Origin: a virus
Virus record (IMG/VR): IMGVR_UViG_3300020057_000120
Span: 1 to 29,507 of that record
DNA length: 29,507 bases
Reading direction: 5' to 3' (one strand)
The translations under genes were made by a program, and so were the position numbers. The notes under the pieces are model-generated. The model was not told where the DNA came from, searched no databases, and saw nothing but the letters and a program-made list of their open reading frames with translations. Each line of letters starts with the position of its first letter. Position 1 is the stretch's first letter. Positions 3,947-29,507 of the stretch are shown here, piece after piece.

Positions 3947-3967
3947 TGAGAAGTGAGAAGTGAGAAG
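3947..3967. repeat. Three tandem 7-bp TGAGAAG repeats
   Basis: Three perfect head-to-tail copies of TGAGAAG, followed by a near copy TGAGTTG, lie in the 60-bp spacer between the ParB-like gene and the gene at 3186-3935. On the minus strand they form a CTTCTCA array a few bases before the ribosome-binding site. The shared TGAG core recalls the larger array at 5002-5045. Confidence 0.75.
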
Positions 3968-3995
3968 TGAGTTGTTTGCTTGTGCTGACGGTATT

Positions 3996-4916
3996 TTAAG
4001 TTGCGCCCCCTTCTGCTAGTAGTTCGGTGAGTTCACCGGCTTTGCGATGTATTGCTGCTGCGTTCTTTCGTTGTTGTTCCACACTGTCGGGGTCGAGATT
4101 AAGCGTCCAGTTGAGGGCGATCATCGCGCCCTCAAGTGCCGTCTTCGCTTTCGCTTTGACAATCAGCGTCGGCAGGATGGCACGGTCGTTGAGTTCCTTG
4201 ATGACGTGTTTGATCCCCCGCTGGTGTGGCTGTGGGGAGAATGGAAAGTCGTTGAAGTGTTTGTCGAGCTTACCCTGCCGAACCTCTTCCATCCGACGCT
4301 TGATAATGGCGGCGGCTAGGGCGTTGAACTCGGGAGGCGATAGGGTCTTGGCGGGTTCGATCAGTTGTTCGCGTAGCGTAGGTGATTGCACCTTGGCGAG
4401 CATGTAAGCAGACATGAGCGGGATGTCCCCGCGATCCACCATCTTCTGAACCTTCGCACTGAGCGATAACAGGTCCAGTTGTTCACTCACCCACTGCGGG
4501 GCCTTATTCACGAAAGCCGCGATCTCGCGGACGGTCGTGCCAGGACGCATGGCTTGCAGTCGTTTCAGTTGCCTCGCGAACTCGGTCTTCGTTGTTTCCT
4601 TGCGGACAGCGTTCTCCCTAATCTGGCACGCAAGAACGTCTTCGTCGGTCAGGTCGTACTTTGTAACGGCCGCTATGGTGGGCAGCTTCAAGACTCTGTG
4701 GATGTCAGTGCGATGCAGCCCCGCGACGACTTCCCTTTTGCCAGGGGCACGATCGCCGGCCGGCCGCAAGCAGACGGGCGTAATTAGTCCGAACCGCTCG
4801 ATAGAGTCGAGCATCGTGACGTACTCGATGGACTCACGATCGATGTACCGAAGTAGGAACTTCGGATCGATGATCTCGTCCAGCGGCACATACCCGATTT
4901 CTTCTTTGCGATCCAC
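3996..4916 (-). CDS. ParB/Spo0J-family DNA-binding protein
   Basis: ParB-like protein, 306 residues from the GTG at 4916. The N-terminal ParB/sulfiredoxin-fold domain includes IGYVPLDEI, SIERFGLITPVCLRP and REVVAGLHRTDIHRVLKLP, where AGLHR matches the GxxR nucleotide-binding motif (GERR in canonical ParB). RENAVR corresponds to the ENLQR box. A helix-turn-helix follows (VREIAAFVNKAPQWVSEQLDLL), then a helical linker and C-terminal helix. The frame extends upstream to a TTG at 5000, but that extension is encoded inside the 39-bp element also found before the primase gene, and the GTG puts the protein start right at the conserved domain, with GAGG 10 bases upstream. Expected roles are genome partition, transcription control or replication initiation. 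The adjacent repeat region is the natural candidate target. Family call strong; start moderately sure. Confidence 0.9.
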   Translation of the reverse strand: MDRKEEIGYVPLDEIIDPKFLLRYIDRESIEYVTMLDSIERFGLITPVCLRPAGDRAPGKREVVAGLHRTDIHRVLKLPTIAAVTKYDLTDEDVLACQIRENAVRKETTKTEFARQLKRLQAMRPGTTVREIAAFVNKAPQWVSEQLDLLSLSAKVQKMVDRGDIPLMSAYMLAKVQSPTLREQLIEPAKTLSPPEFNALAAAIIKRRMEEVRQGKLDKHFNDFPFSPQPHQRGIKHVIKELNDRAILPTLIVKAKAKTALEGAMIALNWTLNLDPDSVEQQRKNAAAIHRKAGELTELLAEGGAT

Positions 4917-4941
4917 ACTGCGTCTGCCTCGTATGTTTCTT

Positions 4942-4980
4942 GACACTGATACTATTGTGCCGTTCTGTGTTAATTTTCCG
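4942..4980 (-). promoter_or_regulatory. 39-bp shared element, leftward copy (promoter/operator candidate)
   Basis: Reads on the minus strand as CGGAAAA, 12 variable bases, then GGCACAATAGTATCAGTGTC. The same layout with identical spacing occurs on the plus strand at 5223-5261, upstream of the primase. Each copy precedes one of the two divergent operons, which supports a promoter or common operator. It does not fit a simple sigma-70 -35/-10 pair, so a phage-specific activator or repressor is possible. It lies 26 bases before the GTG chosen for the ParB-like gene. Confidence 0.6.
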
Positions 4981-5001
4981 TTTGTGCCAAAAGTTAGCAA
5001 A

Positions 5002-5045
5002 TGAGTGAGTGAGTGAGTGAGTGAGTGAGTGAGTGAGTGAGTGAG
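5002..5045. repeat. Eleven tandem TGAG repeats
   Basis: Eleven perfect copies of TGAG. Together with the complementary-type array at 5114-5137 it could fold into an imperfect hairpin, or act as a paired set of binding sites. The position beside a ParB-like gene suggests iteron or centromere use (inference). Such tetranucleotide tracts also change length easily by slippage. Confidence 0.95.
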
Positions 5046-5113
5046 TTATCAGTTCTGCCCGTTCTCGCTATAGAAAGGAATCAAAGGAGTGATAGGTATA
5101 TATGATTGAATTG

Positions 5114-5137
5114 ACTCACTCACTAACTCACTCACTC
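5114..5137. repeat. Opposite-sense ACTC/CTCA array
   Basis: Two blocks of ACTCACTCACT type separated by one extra A, i.e. TGAG units on the opposite strand. It faces the 11-copy TGAG tract about 70 bases to the left across an AT-rich stretch, so the region is an inverted arrangement of the same short unit. Confidence 0.85.
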
Positions 5138-5222
5138 TTAGACCTAAGTCTATGCCGCATTTAGGCTTATGTGGACGGTCCGATTGTAGGGCCGACTAAC
5201 TGGATCACTTCCCCGAGCTTCA

Positions 5223-5261
5223 CGGAAAAATTGGGCGGTTTGGCAGAATAGTATCGGTGTG
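5223..5261 (+). promoter_or_regulatory. 39-bp shared element, rightward copy (promoter/operator candidate)
   Basis: CGGAAAA, 12 variable bases, then GGCAGAATAGTATCGGTGTG. It matches the leftward copy at 4942-4980 at 17 of 20 bases in the right block, with identical spacing. It ends about 52 bases before the ATG chosen for the primase-helicase. Conservation of two separated blocks, with divergence between them, looks like protein recognition rather than coding constraint. Confidence 0.6.
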
Positions 5262-5313
5262 GAAAGATCGCCTTTTAGCACCGTCAAGCTGCCAAGATTC
5301 TCGCAGGCACCGC

Positions 5314-8025
5314 ATGAAAGTAAGTAACTCGATCAAAGCCTTTCTCGAAGCGAAGAGAGATCAACTGGTCCACCCGGACTTGTTGGACTTCTTCCTCGCG
5401 AACTTCCCCGGCCTGGAAACCCAGGTGATGGTTGCGGCGGGTAAGGGCCAGCCAGTGCAGGGACGCCGTTCGACATACACGGACGGCCTGAATGAGTGGT
5501 GGCAGATTCGTATCCCCAAGCAGGCGGACAGTGATCCGTTCTGGGGCGAATACGATTTGAAGTGGCCACTTGAGCTTCACTGTGTATCGATCGGCTCTAC
5601 TGGCTGGCATTGGCAGAATCGACGTTCACTCTATGTGGGCTTCGATTTCGATGCCATCGCGGGTCACGCTGAGGGCGTCGGTATCAAAGACGAGAAGCTC
5701 GCCGAAGTCCGCGATGCCGCGTGTGCGTTGCCGTGGGTTCGGGTACGCCGGTCAACAAGCGGCTCGGGTATCCATCTCTATGTGTTCTTCGACAAAGGCG
5801 GTGTCGCCACGGAGAATCACACGGAGCACGCCGCCCTTGCCCGATACATACTCGGGTTGATGTCGGCTGAGGTCGGGTTCAACTTTGCCTCACAGATCGA
5901 TGCGTGCGGCGGCAATATGTGGTGCTGGGCGAAGAAGACCAGCCTTGAGAATCGCGGCTTCGAGAATATCAAGACCGACGAATTCCAATTCTTCCCGGCC
6001 GACAAAGTGCCCGACAGCTGGCGGGACCATATCGATGTCATCACCCGAAAGCGGGCGAAGACACGGGTGGGCAACGTCGAGCCGGGCAACATCGACATCT
6101 TCGAGGCTCTCACCAGCGCTCACCGCGTAGTGCCGTTGGAAGAGGCCCACAAGAACCAAATGGACGAGATTGAGCAGGCGGGGTTCGCGGTGCAGTGGGT
6201 GAGCGATCACCACATGCTGCAAACGCATACCCGTGGCTTCGCCTATCTCATGGAGAACCACAAGGAAGAAATGGGTCTGCAAGGCGGCTTTGAAACAAAC
6301 TCCAAGGGTGCCAACCCTGGTGAGGCCAACTGTTTTGCGTTCCCAGGTGACGGCGGTAGCTGGAAGATTTACCGTTTCTCGCCCGGCATCTCGGAAGCCA
6401 GGACGTGGGAACAAGACGGCCAGGGGTACACCACCTGCTGGTTCAATCGCAAGCCCAATCTAAAGGCAGCCGCGCGGGCCACGGGTGGTCGCGACTTGAA
6501 AAGCGGTGGCTATGAATTCGACAGTCTTGAGAAAGCGGCCAAGGTCGCTGAGGCTCTCGGCCAAACAATCCAGGTCGAAGATCAACTCAAGCACCGCAAG
6601 GCTGTCGTAAGTAAAAGCAAAGATGGCCGCTTGACCATCGAAGTCGCGAAGGAAGCCGGCGACGTTCAGATGGGGGATTGGAACAACAGTGACAAGAAGA
6701 ATGCCTGGACCCAGGTGTTCGACATTCCGACTGAGCCCTTGCAAGAAGAAATCACGAGCTACGATGATAAGATTCGTTGTCTCACAACACCCGACACTCA
6801 GCCGGCCGGCTGGGCCACACGAAGCAAGCGGGGCGAGTGGTTACGCAAGACGGCTTCCAGCGTGAAGATGATCTTGCAACGCCACGGCAACGCAAAGCCC
6901 GACGCCGAGATTCTGATGGGCGCGGCCGAAGACGACCCGTGGAAGCTGGTGGCCGAGCCGTTCAAGCCCGAGTACCCCGGCGACCGACAGTGGAATCTCA
7001 ATGCCCCGCAACTGGTGTATGCTCCGGTGCCTCGTGGCGTGGAGTACGAGCACCCGACTTGGGACTTGATGCTGAGTCACTTGGGCAAAGACTTAGACCC
7101 GTACCTCCGCGAGTTGGAGTGGGCGCAGAAGTGCAACATTCTGACGGGCGGCGATTATTTGACGGCATGGTACGCTGCGATCATTCGCGACCCGCTGCTG
7201 CGGCTGCCCTACCTATTCTTCTTTGGTGACGAGAACAACGGCAAGAGTTCGTACTGGGAAGCGTTCCAGCTTCTTGTCACAGGCGGCGTCGTCAAGGCTG
7301 ATCGCTCGCTGACAAGTCAGAACGACTTCAACGGCGAGTTGGTCGGGGCGATCATGTGCGTTGTGGAAGAGAAGAACATCTCCAAGGCAGACGGCGCAGC
7401 GGCGAAGATCAAGGATGCTGTGACGACACTCACGCTGTCTATTCGCAGGATGCGGCAGGACACTTACCAGATCGTGAACATGACGCACTGGTGTCAGTTT
7501 GCGAACAATCAAGACGCCTTGATGGTGCCGCCCGGATCAACTCGCATCACCGTGATCTACGTCACCAATTTCGCGAAGGAAATCCCGAAGGATGAATTGC
7601 ACGCGCGCCTCAAGGCCGAAGCCCCTGCGTTCATGCGGACACTGATTGACTTCCAACTACCGCCCGTCACTGGTCGGCTCGCGTTGCCCATCGTCGAAAC
7701 TCGCCACAAGGAACGCTCGGAAGAATTGAGCCGCTCGTTGCTTGAAACTTTCGTCCGCGAGGAAACGCATTTTGTTGTTGGCGAGAAGTCGGTCACATTC
7801 GCCGAGTTCTTTCAGAAGTTTAACGAGTGGTTGCCAGAAGACGAACGCTACCTTTGGACAAAGCATCGGGTTAGTAAAAGTCTGCCTATGAACCACCCCA
7901 GCGGTAAGGCGGGCGGCGGCGGTAAGCTTCACATCGGCAACCTTAGCTGGGAGGCGAAAGCGCCCGAGGCTGGTGCCCAGCTTCTGATCGTGAAAGAAAG
8001 GAAGCTCGTACCCGAGAATGGCTAA
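5314..8025 (+). CDS. Primase-helicase: AEP primase domain fused to SF3 helicase
   Basis: A 903-residue replication protein that should prime and unwind phage DNA. The N-terminal half shows archaeo-eukaryotic primase motifs: VGFDFDAI with the metal-binding DxD (D111, D113), and SGSGIHLYVFFD (about 149-160) with the sGxGxH nucleotide-binding signature. The C-terminal half is an SF3 AAA+ helicase: Walker A GDENNGKS (638-645), Walker B ending in VVEEKN (E685-E686) and motif C WCQFANNQ (N731/N732). PPGSTRITVIYVTNF just beyond is where the SF3 arginine finger would sit. The frame is open back to a GTG at 5257, but that codon falls inside the 39-bp regulatory element; the ATG at 5314 has AGG 7 bases upstream. 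Size and architecture match AEP-SF3 replicases of phages and plasmids. First gene of the overlapped plus-strand operon. Confidence 0.95.
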   Translation: MKVSNSIKAFLEAKRDQLVHPDLLDFFLANFPGLETQVMVAAGKGQPVQGRRSTYTDGLNEWWQIRIPKQADSDPFWGEYDLKWPLELHCVSIGSTGWHWQNRRSLYVGFDFDAIAGHAEGVGIKDEKLAEVRDAACALPWVRVRRSTSGSGIHLYVFFDKGGVATENHTEHAALARYILGLMSAEVGFNFASQIDACGGNMWCWAKKTSLENRGFENIKTDEFQFFPADKVPDSWRDHIDVITRKRAKTRVGNVEPGNIDIFEALTSAHRVVPLEEAHKNQMDEIEQAGFAVQWVSDHHMLQTHTRGFAYLMENHKEEMGLQGGFETNSKGANPGEANCFAFPGDGGSWKIYRFSPGISEARTWEQDGQGYTTCWFNRKPNLKAAARATGGRDLKSGGYEFDSLEKAAKVAEALGQTIQVEDQLKHRKAVVSKSKDGRLTIEVAKEAGDVQMGDWNNSDKKNAWTQVFDIPTEPLQEEITSYDDKIRCLTTPDTQPAGWATRSKRGEWLRKTASSVKMILQRHGNAKPDAEILMGAAEDDPWKLVAEPFKPEYPGDRQWNLNAPQLVYAPVPRGVEYEHPTWDLMLSHLGKDLDPYLRELEWAQKCNILTGGDYLTAWYAAIIRDPLLRLPYLFFFGDENNGKSSYWEAFQLLVTGGVVKADRSLTSQNDFNGELVGAIMCVVEEKNISKADGAAAKIKDAVTTLTLSIRRMRQDTYQIVNMTHWCQFANNQDALMVPPGSTRITVIYVTNFAKEIPKDELHARLKAEAPAFMRTLIDFQLPPVTGRLALPIVETRHKERSEELSRSLLETFVREETHFVVGEKSVTFAEFFQKFNEWLPEDERYLWTKHRVSKSLPMNHPSGKAGGGGKLHIGNLSWEAKAPEAGAQLLIVKERKLVPENG

Positions 8026-22278: not shown

Positions 22279-23301
22279 TTACGCGCGCTCGATGTCGGCC
22301 TCACTCACGTTGCACTTGCCTTTGGTGGCAATGGTTGCCGCGCTGAGATCGAATTCGAGAGAATCGCGTCGGAACATCGGGAACGTCGTCCGCTCCGTTT
22401 CGGCAGTGCCGCACGGAGGGTTGTGTTCGATCTCGATGTCAACGCAGTAGGGTTCACACTGGTCGTCCGAGGCGCTGAACCAACCACTCGCGCCACCGAT
22501 GCCTTTAATCGCATCGACAGCAGTGATTTCCTCAGCGGTGCCCGTCCGCACAAACTCATAGACGAATTCGAGGCTCACTTCGAGTGGGGCCTCGTCACCT
22601 TCGCGAACGGCGTCCAGGTTGCCCCGGTCGAGTTCGTACTCGTAGTTCTTCGTCTCGGTATAGGTCAGATTGCCGTTGCCGACTTTCACTTCCACCTGTT
22701 GAGGTAGGAGGGTGATGTTGTCGTTATTGGCAGGCAGATCGCCAGCGTCTAAAGCCGGGGTGAAGGTCAGTTCCCACGACACCGCGCCAGCGCGGAGCGT
22801 GGTCACACCCACCGTATCGCCACCGCCTGCCAAATCCACGTCGTCCGCAGTAAGCGTCGGCGTGCTGAGGTTGGCATAAGCACCCTTGATCTCGATGTGA
22901 TACGTGCCGGCAACCGGCAGTGTCACAAGAACGTCACCTGCGACCACGTTCGAGAGAGCCACAAGGGCTGCCTGGACGTTGACCGCTGTGTCGTTGTAAG
23001 GGATGCTGGCCGTGGTCTGGCCGTTGAAGGTGATAGTGAAGTTGCCGCTCGTGGCATCGACCACGACTGCGAACTTCTTGTTGGCCTTCTCGGCAGTCAC
23101 GACGAACACGGTGTCAGCCACCGTGGCAATCGTGAAGCGAGCGCCAACGGGGACTCGTGTGGTTGCGTTCGGCAAGCTTGCCAACGTGTCGATTTCCAAG
23201 GTGGTGTCGCCACCACCGGGAGAGCTTTCATCCACTTTTGCTGTGCCACCAAAACCGTCTTTGATACGGATCGTGGCATCGCGTAGTTCAATGCGTGCCA
23301 T
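22279..23301 (-). CDS. Tail-tube protein paralogue B with inserted domain
   Basis: A 340-residue paralogue of the neighbouring tail-tube protein (23339-24064). The N-terminus (MARIELRDATIRIKDG) and the C-terminal 150 residues (LPQQVEVKVGNGNLTYTETK onward) are nearly identical to it. Between them lies an insert of about 100 residues (about 70-175) with strand pattern GNFTITFNGQTTASIPYN, VQAALVALSNV, GDVLVTLPVAGTYHIEIKGA, and LTADDVDLAGG. This is a beta-sandwich-like module I recall from planctomycete and phage surface proteins. Four cysteines are shared with the paralogue (CEPYC, PPCG, KGKC). It is probably a decorated tube subunit or a second tube protein, since insertion of a surface domain into a tube gene is known for other phages. 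Confidence 0.9.
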   Translation of the reverse strand: MARIELRDATIRIKDGFGGTAKVDESSPGGGDTTLEIDTLASLPNATTRVPVGARFTIATVADTVFVVTAEKANKKFAVVVDATSGNFTITFNGQTTASIPYNDTAVNVQAALVALSNVVAGDVLVTLPVAGTYHIEIKGAYANLSTPTLTADDVDLAGGGDTVGVTTLRAGAVSWELTFTPALDAGDLPANNDNITLLPQQVEVKVGNGNLTYTETKNYEYELDRGNLDAVREGDEAPLEVSLEFVYEFVRTGTAEEITAVDAIKGIGGASGWFSASDDQCEPYCVDIEIEHNPPCGTAETERTTFPMFRRDSLEFDLSAATIATKGKCNVSEADIERA

Positions 23302-23338: not shown

Positions 23339-24064
23339 TTACGACCGCGAGATGTCGGCCTCACTCACGTTGCACTTGCCCTTTGTGGCAATCGTCGCAG
23401 CGTTGAGGTCGAATTCGAGCGAGTCACGGCGGAACATCGGAAACGTGGTCGTTTCCGTTTGAGCAGTACCGCACGGCGGGTTGTGCTCGATTTCGAGATC
23501 GACGCAGTACGGCTCGCACAAGTCGGACGAAGAACTCACCCACTCGGACGCGCCGCCGCTGCCTTTGATGGCATCAACAGGTGTGATCTCTTCGCTCGTC
23601 CCAGTGCGGACAAACTCGTAGACGAATTCGAGACTGACTTCGAGCGGGGCTTCATCGCCCTCACGAACGGAGTCCAGGTTGCCCCGGTCGAGTTCGTACT
23701 CGTAGTTCTTCGTCTCGGTATACGTCAGGTTGCCGTTGCCGACTTTCACTTCAATCTGCTGGGGCAGGAAGGTGATGACGGCATCGTCGGCCACGCCGGC
23801 CGCAGTGACGGGCGTGAAGGTGATCGCGGTCGTCGGACTGGGTCCAGTACGGCCAGTGACCGTGTGGACAGGGAGGCCAGTTTCACCCGCGATGGTGAAT
23901 CGAGCCCCGATCGGAATTTGCGTGGTCAGTGTCGTGTTCAACGACACGGTATCAACACCCAAAGAAGTGTCGCCGGCCATGATGCTCATGTCATTGACAG
24001 CGGCGGTGCCCGCCAGTCCATCTTTGACACGGATCGTGGCATCGCGAAGTTCAATACGTGCCAT
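23339..24064 (-). CDS. Major tail-tube protein A
   Basis: A 241-residue tube-like protein. The core has the long beta pattern expected for a tail tube: EVKVGNGNLTYTETKNYEYE, EGDEAPLEVSLEFVYEFVR, and a closing FPMFRRDSLEFDLNAATIA. Cysteine pairs CEPYC, PPCG and KGKC near the C-terminus could form disulfides or bind metal. The frame reaches a GTG at 24133, but the intervening part is a Phe run from a GAA microsatellite; ATG 24064 with AGGG 9 bases upstream matches the paralogue's start exactly. It is preceded by the tail terminator gene and followed by its duplicate. Family call by context and fold pattern. Confidence 0.85.
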   Translation of the reverse strand: MARIELRDATIRVKDGLAGTAAVNDMSIMAGDTSLGVDTVSLNTTLTTQIPIGARFTIAGETGLPVHTVTGRTGPSPTTAITFTPVTAAGVADDAVITFLPQQIEVKVGNGNLTYTETKNYEYELDRGNLDSVREGDEAPLEVSLEFVYEFVRTGTSEEITPVDAIKGSGGASEWVSSSSDLCEPYCVDLEIEHNPPCGTAQTETTTFPMFRRDSLEFDLNAATIATKGKCNVSEADISRS

Positions 24065-24129
24065 GTGGGATTTCCCTTTGTTGTTGGATTCATGCCGGCA
24101 GAAGGCCGGGCAGAAGAAGAAGAAGAAGC

Positions 24130-24149
24130 CCACACATGACTGAGTGTGG
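24130..24149 (-). terminator. Weak hairpin, possible attenuator before tail-tube genes
   Basis: Six-bp stem (24130-24135 with 24144-24149) and 8-base loop, followed on the minus strand by a CTT repeat rather than a pure T run. It lies between the tail terminator gene and the tail-tube gene. Marginal. Confidence 0.3.
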
Positions 24150-27208: not shown

Positions 27209-28018
27209 CTACTTGCGGGGCAGGCCCAACCGCTCGGGTTGTTCCTTCCGCAGACGCATGAATTCTTCCATCGACACTTTACCGGGGTCGATCTTCCCGG
27301 CTCCGCTGCCACCACCGACGCCGGACGTGCCGCCGACACCGCTGACAATATTGGATTTGAACAAACCGCCGTACTGGGTCGTCAAGGTCTTCATCTTCTT
27401 GACGGCATCTGCGGGGGTCATTTGCAGAATCTCGACCGCGCCGTCATCCGCGCGGATCGGAAAGTTGATCATCGGCTCTTCATCGACCATCTTCACCATG
27501 TCGTTCAACACGGTGACGATGATCTGGGGATTGAAGGCATCTTCGGCCACGGCGGCGTCCTGCAAGGATCGCTTCACCTTGGCGTCGATGTATTTGTGCT
27601 CGGCATCTTTCGCACGACGCTCGGCCTCGGCCAGCTTCGTGCTGTACTCGTCTTCCAGCTTCTTCTTCTCAAGACGGGCGTTTTCTTCCTTCGTCCGTAA
27701 CTGCTTGAGCATGTCTTCGCGAAGCTCTTCGGCCTTGTACCGATCGCCCTCCGCGAGGTTCTTGCTTGCGAGAAGCTCGTCCAGCTTCTTCTTGTTCTTT
27801 TCGGCTTCCTTGCGGCGCTCTTCGGCCAGCAACTTGTTCAGGTGGTCCTGCTGGTCGGTCGAGAATTCGACCTTCTTGCCGCCCTTGGCGGGCGCGGCGG
27901 GCGGGTCAGCGGGCGAGTCAGCGGGCGAGTCAGCGGGCGGGTCGCCGCCGAGGTTGAGAGCGTCTGCGAGGGCGTCGAAGCAAATCAACGAGATGTGCGA
28001 GAAAGATGTACGGTGCAT
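27209..28018 (-). CDS. Capsid assembly scaffold protein
   Basis: A 269-residue protein just before the capsid gene. It is dominated by a charged coiled-coil (about 55-150: DHLNKLLAEERRKEAEKNKK and on through KLEDEYSTKLAEAERRAKDAEH). An N-terminal Pro/Ala/Asp repeat (DPPADSPADSPADPPA, about 26-41) precedes it, and a C-terminal segment (about 240-269) with EEFMRLRKEQPERLGLPRK looks like a coat-binding helix. Gly-rich linker at 220-238. This is the composition and location of phage scaffolds. The frame extends to a GTG at 28024, but ATG 28018 has GGAG 5 bases upstream. Confidence 0.88.
   Translation of the reverse strand: MHRTSFSHISLICFDALADALNLGGDPPADSPADSPADPPAAPAKGGKKVEFSTDQQDHLNKLLAEERRKEAEKNKKKLDELLASKNLAEGDRYKAEELREDMLKQLRTKEENARLEKKKLEDEYSTKLAEAERRAKDAEHKYIDAKVKRSLQDAAVAEDAFNPQIIVTVLNDMVKMVDEEPMINFPIRADDGAVEILQMTPADAVKKMKTLTTQYGGLFKSNIVSGVGGTSGVGGGSGAGKIDPGKVSMEEFMRLRKEQPERLGLPRK
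27897..27944. repeat. Four 12-bp tandem repeats in the scaffold gene
   Basis: Four head-to-tail units of GCGGGCGRGTCR, coding on the minus strand for the D-[PS]-PA repeat of the scaffold N-terminus. Period is exactly 12, so the reading frame is kept if copy number changes. Confidence 0.9.
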
Positions 28019-28747: not shown

Positions 28748-29507
28748 TTAGTCCGCTAGTAATGCGTATCGACCTATCTTGATCTGCCGGGCGGCATTGG
28801 TGAGTGTCGTGGCCGATATATCCCAATACATGAGAGTTGACGCATTGGGAATCGTTGTGGTGTGGGTCACAACAAGCACGTCGTTGATGTAAAAAATAAC
28901 ATCGGCGTTGGTGACTTCAATCCGCATCACATAGACGGTATCGACCGCGACGGCCACGGTAGTCGTTGTGACCTGTGGCGTACCGCTGGCATTGTCACTG
29001 ACACACCGCCAGAAAGCAGTACCGTCTGCGGCGGTGTCATAGCGAAAACCAGCATAGTGGACAGATGGAGTGGCGCTACTTTGCGGATTTCCGCTTGCCA
29101 GACTGACCCAAAAACGAACCGACGTGATCGTTGCGGGCGTCTTTATGCGGGTTACTGACAGTGTATTCCACTGTCGCCAGACGCCAGCGGAGGCGTTGTA
29201 AGTTACTCTGCAATGGTTTCCGCTGGTTGCACCAGATTGTAGGAGTGCAAAAGCACCTTCTGCTTCATTGGTGACACTACTTAGCCCGGTGAAAGTTGGA
29301 GTCGCTGCAAACCCGGATACTTGTCCGTTACCATCCGATCCAATAATATACTGGCGGAGATATTTTCTGGTCGCAATACCGGAGTCCGACCCCGTGGCTC
29401 CCGTGGCTCCCGTGGCTCCCGTGGCTCCCGTGGCACCCGTGGCTCCCGTGGCTCCCGTGGCTCCCGTGGCACCCGTGGCACCCGTGGCACCCGTGGCACC
29501 CATGTCG
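28748..29507 (-). CDS. Collagen-like phage fibre protein, N-terminus beyond the window
   Basis: The frame continues past the right edge; the ATG at 29503 is most likely an internal Met within a G-D-M collagen triplet, so the true start is outside. Twelve Gly-Ala-Thr triplets (29393-29500) form a collagen-like stalk. They are followed by a segment [15 protein letters not shown] and a globular C-terminal domain of about 200 residues with Trp/Phe-rich beta strands ([43 protein letters not shown]), resembling a lectin-like or LamG-like fibre tip. Likely trimeric host-binding fibre. Unusually it precedes the head genes rather than following the tail genes. Confidence 0.85.
29393..29500. repeat. 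Twelve 9-bp collagen repeats
   Basis: Twelve in-phase 9-bp units encoding Gly-Ala-Thr; only the third base of the glycine codon varies (GGT, GGA, GGG). Nearly perfect DNA repetition implies recent expansion. Confidence 0.95.

Follow-up and report, generated by a model that had tools for sequence, protein, structure and literature searches.

The intergenic space that separates a leftward ParB-like gene from a rightward primase-helicase gene in a virus genome (IMG/VR record IMGVR_UViG_3300020057_000120, positions 1–29,507; this whole stretch of 29,507 nt is called the window) probably serves both as a replication origin and as a hub of divergent promoters. The space covers positions ~4920–5313 (~394 bp), as judged from the likely gene starts. 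Its inner part consists of two facing arrays of 4-bp repeats (iterons) around an AT-rich core, and this part would be the origin, recognised by the primase-helicase. At the edges is a pair of 39-bp elements, which are predicted to be promoter/operator elements of three operons (ParB, primase and late) and not origin parts. The origin reading is based on facing arrays that recur in relatives with changed units, a conserved centre, DnaA boxes in one lineage, the adjacent primase-helicase, and a layout like that of the origins of phage-inducible chromosomal islands (PICI).

Repeat and inverted-repeat scans confirm the elements that a first-pass annotation, made from the letters alone, had described here: eleven TGAG copies, a facing ACTC array, an AT-rich middle and paired 39-bp elements. 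The TGAG array has 11.2 copies with 100% matches, and the ACTC array has 6 units with a single variant base (ACTA). The two arrays are mutually complementary, with 24-bp arms at 96% and 67–87 bp apart. Their inverted-repeat score is 21 vs 10 or less in shuffles, and every other 400-bp stretch of the window scores 14 or less. The spacer has 37% GC vs 57.5% window-wide, and only 0.2% of 67-bp segments of the window are equally AT-rich. Transcription from the two outward promoters probably does not cover the arrays, which are upstream of both. An Rfam search gave no match, a sigma-70 promoter scan gave nothing at consensus level, and a ATATAGAAG-type motif beside the arrays is not above shuffles. 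A search of known-phage DNA gave just short spurious matches, and tblastn of a phage collection showed no relative of the primase.

Relatives were sought first with the SNF2-like gene that lies at the left end of the window, and next with a primase alignment built from several sequences; many loci with the same divergent gene pair were found. After removal of duplicates, 92 distinct intergenic regions were compared, the window included. Six of these (L017, L034, L077, L084, L177 and L181) span the primase to the next conserved gene, and no ParB-like gene is recognised there. One of the six, L077, displays five CTGAAA direct repeats with an 11-bp spacing. The whole analysis is comparative and the loci are mutually related, thus counts are not independent. 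What was computed directly is the architecture, the fact that some relatives conserve it with changed units, and the third promoter copies reported below.

Facing arrays are found in the same place with other units than the GAGT of the window: TAGG in L008, L010 and L011, TTAG in L016, TGAC in L200, L202 and L205, 8-bp units in L012 and L022, and GAGTGGAT in L063 and L078. Left and right inner halves match better within the same genome than between genomes (mean 9.87 vs 6.70, permutation p = 2e-4) in 31 loci that were chosen, and whose inner limits were set, by hand and eye. The match is individually significant in the window, L010, L011, L202, L205, L197, L063, L078 and a few others. A comparison of L007 with L243 shows the centre to be the most conserved part, 0.82–0.90 vs 0.57–0.65 at the primase-side edge. 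Exact DnaA boxes occur at 0.215/kb in the intergenic regions vs 0.010/kb elsewhere in these loci. L200, L202 and L205 account for nearly all of them, each with two to three exact boxes (TTATCCACA) beside the facing arrays, a likeness to bacterial oriC; unlike oriC, the region of the window has no DnaA box.

The primase-helicase matches Pfam DUF5906 (5e-11), the PHROG DNA primase family (3.6e-20) and, in a profile comparison, the C-terminal region (CTR) of the NrS-1 primase (7.7e-11). An AlphaFold model (predicted local distance difference test, pLDDT, 89.6) has the NrS-1 CTR and SaPI5 PriRep1 as closest solved folds in Foldseek. The helicase part is assigned to the superfamily 3 (SF3)/D5 type (DUF5906), and a DFD motif suggests that the primase-like N-terminal part is an archaeo-eukaryotic primase (AEP). 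The model also displays a C-terminal helix-helix-helix-strand-strand segment, approximately residues 829–874, which is predicted to be winged-helix-like.

The origins of PICI always consist of two sets of iterons flanking an AT-rich region (PMC6092414), and in Staphylococcus aureus pathogenicity islands (SaPI) the Rep C-terminal domain binds the iterons (PMC7581432). The window shares with these origins the two arrays around a 37% GC spacer, a unit sequence particular to each element (PMC6092414, PMC7581432), and an SF3/D5-type primase-helicase as the putative initiator, with its fold match to SaPI5 PriRep1. In contrast, the window belongs to a tailed phage linked to Planctomycetota and not to a satellite. 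PICI/SaPI origins lie immediately 3′ of rep, whereas the region here is 5′ of the primase-helicase gene, between divergent operons, has 4-bp units in long perfect arrays, and carries a ParB-like gene on its other side. A similar layout in Planctomycetota-linked tailed phages would extend this origin type to full phages, in which iteron units would change quickly between genomes.

Among solved proteins the primase-helicase is most closely related to that of NrS-1, a phage with two recognition sites, one on each strand (PMC7102993), and NrSPol also primes at GTGA/GTGG (PMC8718748). The arrays of the window likewise read GTGA, one array per strand, in a direction that fits outward priming. The inner region of the window has 16 outward GTG[AG] vs 1 inward, but in another clade the GT-units have the reverse orientation. 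The NrS-1 sites, in contrast, are single 8-mers (TTTGGTTA), a sequence with no occurrence in the window, and the units of the relatives are often not GTG (TAGG, TGAC). Tandem tetranucleotides (GAGY motif) also make up the Rep-binding element of adeno-associated virus (AAV), where an SF3-helicase initiator places one monomer on each of them (PMC2809752). In contrast, the AAV element is a single array in a terminal repeat, whereas the window has two facing arrays around an AT-rich core. AAV Rep binds through an HUH nuclease domain, and no such domain is known in the phage protein.

Replication from this region, and the identity of the protein that binds it, are inferred. The outer elements, with their phage-specific sequence, would drive the ParB operon to the left and the primase operon to the right. 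The primase-helicase would assemble a ring on each array, probably via its C-terminal winged helix, and rings on both arrays would melt the AT-rich core; ring assembly and core opening are proposed because of the analogy with SaPI Rep and PICI origins. The primase domain would then start leading-strand primers outward in both directions. A more specific version is rather doubtful: on double-stranded DNA, each 4-bp unit would be the site for a single subunit of the SF3 ring; after melting, the GTGA repeats, one array per strand, would be the template start sites of the PrimPol, with primers running outward in both directions. If true, one sequence would act as iteron and as primer start site, and the phage origin would be bidirectional and self-contained. 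Priming at GTGA is kept as a possibility only, because the orientation of GT-containing units is reversed in another clade. Uniform outward GTG priming in all relatives is ruled out, some clades being reversed. For a phylum whose phage replication seems little studied, the region also offers an origin that can be tested.

Several points weigh against the origin reading. Arrays are not universal; none is found in the regions of 138–220 bp, and the region of L064 is just 59 bp. In L007 and L243, the closest relatives, just short degenerate TGAC-like units are present. The left/right match alone is not significant in L008, L012, L016 and L022, and the selection by hand and eye in that test counts here as well. 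The DnaA boxes are essentially confined to one lineage, with none in the region of the window, and GT-unit orientation differs between clades. Cumulative GC skew, suggested at first pass as a check, does not place the locus consistently at a minimum or maximum in 17 contigs; it is uninformative and lends no support. The earlier proposal of a plausible phage origin has indirect support, namely the facing iterons of relatives, the conserved centre, the DnaA boxes of one lineage and the D5/SF3-type neighbour, and the conservation it asked for is found in part.

It is unlikely that the arrays serve transcription only, as regulator sites for the two divergent promoters with replication starting elsewhere. 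Divergent promoter-like elements do flank the region and many relatives manage without arrays, but the two arrays are set inside the promoter pair and face one another across an AT-rich core, nothing resembling an array was noticed beside the late promoter copies, and the DnaA boxes of one lineage occupy the same place. Two facing arrays that share one unit, in an arrangement that recurs with different units at this position in relatives and with no comparable inverted array elsewhere in the window, make it very unlikely that the TGAG array is a neutral microsatellite, a functionless product of slippage. Slippage can nevertheless lengthen perfect short tandem repeats, the eleven perfect units exceed the tetranucleotide arrays of relatives in length, and the closest relatives lack clean arrays.

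Binding of the arrays by the ParB-like protein, as a centromere or operator for partition or autoregulation, is doubtful. The arrays adjoin the gene, and its product is a genuine ParB fold with a helix-turn-helix (HTH): Pfam HTH_ParB is above cut-off and ParB_N just below, the PHROG family is ParB-like, the AlphaFold model (pLDDT 92.9) has Noc, ParB and KorB as best Foldseek matches, and there is a profile match to Spo0J (E = 1.7e-31). Phage and plasmid ParB relatives such as KorB and VirB regulate promoters (PMC11790492, PMC10770331). Array presence, however, does not track ParB presence across relatives; ParB-positive relatives without arrays are common, many of them with regions of 138–220 bp, and ParB-less loci retain the outer pair, one of them with 11-bp repeats of its own. 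The ParB operators described are palindromes and not 4-bp tandem repeats, which counts against a centromere. No parS-like conserved palindrome is found in the region of the window, as had already been noted at first pass, and this, with the independence of the arrays from ParB, sets the region apart from parS, KorB and VirB sites in spite of the ParB-fold protein encoded beside it. No ParA partner was matched among the ten window proteins screened. The CTP-binding GERR box of the ParB-like protein is degenerate (VDGxxR), and across 47 relatives VDGxxR mostly replaces it.

A sister clade has a near-palindrome, GCGTGTAAACGC, in its primase leader, in 18–23 of the 92 regions (e.g. L028, L032 and L005), 18 of which share a 10-mer. 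It often has several copies per genome (contigs G010, G016 and G033) and lies ~140–150 bp from the late promoter copy in G010, G030 and G033. Scans of two ParB-less contigs (G017, G041) and of window-clade contigs did not show it. In the sister clade, where this motif and not the arrays accompanies ParB, GCGTGTAAACGC is a better candidate site for the ParB-like protein. The centromere-like role assigned to the arrays in the first-pass annotation is thus not supported.

The outer elements had been grouped with the arrays in the first-pass annotation. The elements are present, but the joint role is not borne out; they sit at the edges and form a separate functional layer. The two copies in the window are identical at 28 of 39 positions and face outward, and the best match to a third copy within the window is only at chance level. 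An inverted pair beats all of 40 shuffles in 83 of the 92 regions, where the top-scoring pair is the array in the window and an iteron array or very long inverted repeat in a few other loci. In most inspected loci the pair faces outward near the gene starts, with a sequence that is lineage-specific and nearly identical within a genome, and ParB-less relatives still carry it. One layout is common to the elements of L007, L243 and the window: a GAAAA box, ~13–15 bases, GGC or GCC, and a TATC-containing core.

Further copies were sought in 20 contigs, two of them without a usable pair. Clear third copies are found in G010, G016, G028, G030 and G033 and weaker ones in G017 and G031. Six of the seven are directly upstream of a conserved gene of ~180–195 aa at the head of the late operon (truncated in G030, where the fetched piece ends), and that of G017 is upstream of an NlpC/P60-like gene; these family names are a reading of translations and not database matches. 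The same-strand gene run after the third copy in G016 includes the terminase large subunit. In a Planctomycetota prophage close to the window phage, the intergenic region holds two exact copies of the element, and a further one with 2 mismatches lies ~54 bp upstream of the orthologous gene; these are the three best matches across its 9.2-Mb genome. Copies thus stand directly upstream of several operons in the same orientation to the gene. The assignment to promoters/operators of three operons is predicted because the third copy recurs upstream of the late operon, and a third copy is expected at the late operon of the window phage, outside the window. Such a conserved three-operon signature would be useful for annotating these prophages.

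The outer pair could also represent promoters of a phage-encoded single-subunit T7-like RNA polymerase, which is compatible with the origin reading but quite unlikely. The element cores are lineage-specific, identical within a genome, often end in a TATAGG-like sequence and lie near operon starts. PF00940, on the other side, is unmatched in 43 contigs, several >75 kb, in a search whose control genomes yielded no positive, so that sensitivity is not demonstrated. No RNA polymerase is seen among the large open reading frames scanned in G016, and a host polymerase with a phage regulator is simpler. In distant relatives (L194, L197, L204, L210, L213 and others), the starts of both genes have AATCAAATCA / TGATTTGATT inverted repeats close by, possibly operators.

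Table 1. Features of the ParB/primase-helicase intergenic region and its two flanking genes (window coordinates)
Feature	Position	Strand	Remark
ParB-like protein	3996–4919	−	First gene of leftward operon; probable GTG start at 4919
Outer element, leftward copy	4943–4981	−	72% identity to rightward copy; box layout and spacing as in L007 and L243 elements
Iteron array (TGAG)11, GTGA on + strand	5002–5046	+	Relatives have facing arrays with other units
AT-rich spacer, candidate melting region	5047–5113		37% GC; matching centre is the most conserved block, L007 vs L243
Facing iteron array (ACTC)6 with one variant, GTGA on − strand	5114–5137	−	Repeat and inverted-repeat scans
Outer element, rightward copy	5222–5260	+	Third copies upstream of late operon in relatives
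Primase-helicase	5314–8025	+	Probable ATG start at 5314

The window phage appears to be a tailed phage of Planctomycetota and is probably temperate, its host being taken from relatives. All six matches in a collection of bacterial genomes are in Planctomycetota metagenome-assembled genomes. The L243 primase, 64% identical to that of the window, sits in a 290-kb contig that also has DUF1501, formyltransferase, MutY-like and rhomboid genes and a phage integrase ~20 kb from the primase. L243 thus looks like an integrated Planctomycetota prophage. In contig C76 of G044 (~198–256 kb), a relative of the window phage appears to be inserted in a Planctomycetota chromosome, and an integrase gene flanks it on one side.

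Other repeats are present in the window. TGAGAAG is repeated 3.6 times at 3947–3971, directly upstream of the 250-aa gene that follows ParB. The neighbouring genes at 22279–23301 and 23339–24133 have strongly similar C-terminal halves, an apparent tandem duplication, and probably encode tail proteins. A 12-bp unit repeated 3.9 times inside a gene (27897–27943) encodes a PADS-like repeat, and at the window edge (29391–29501) twelve 9-bp repeats encode a GAT collagen-like stretch.
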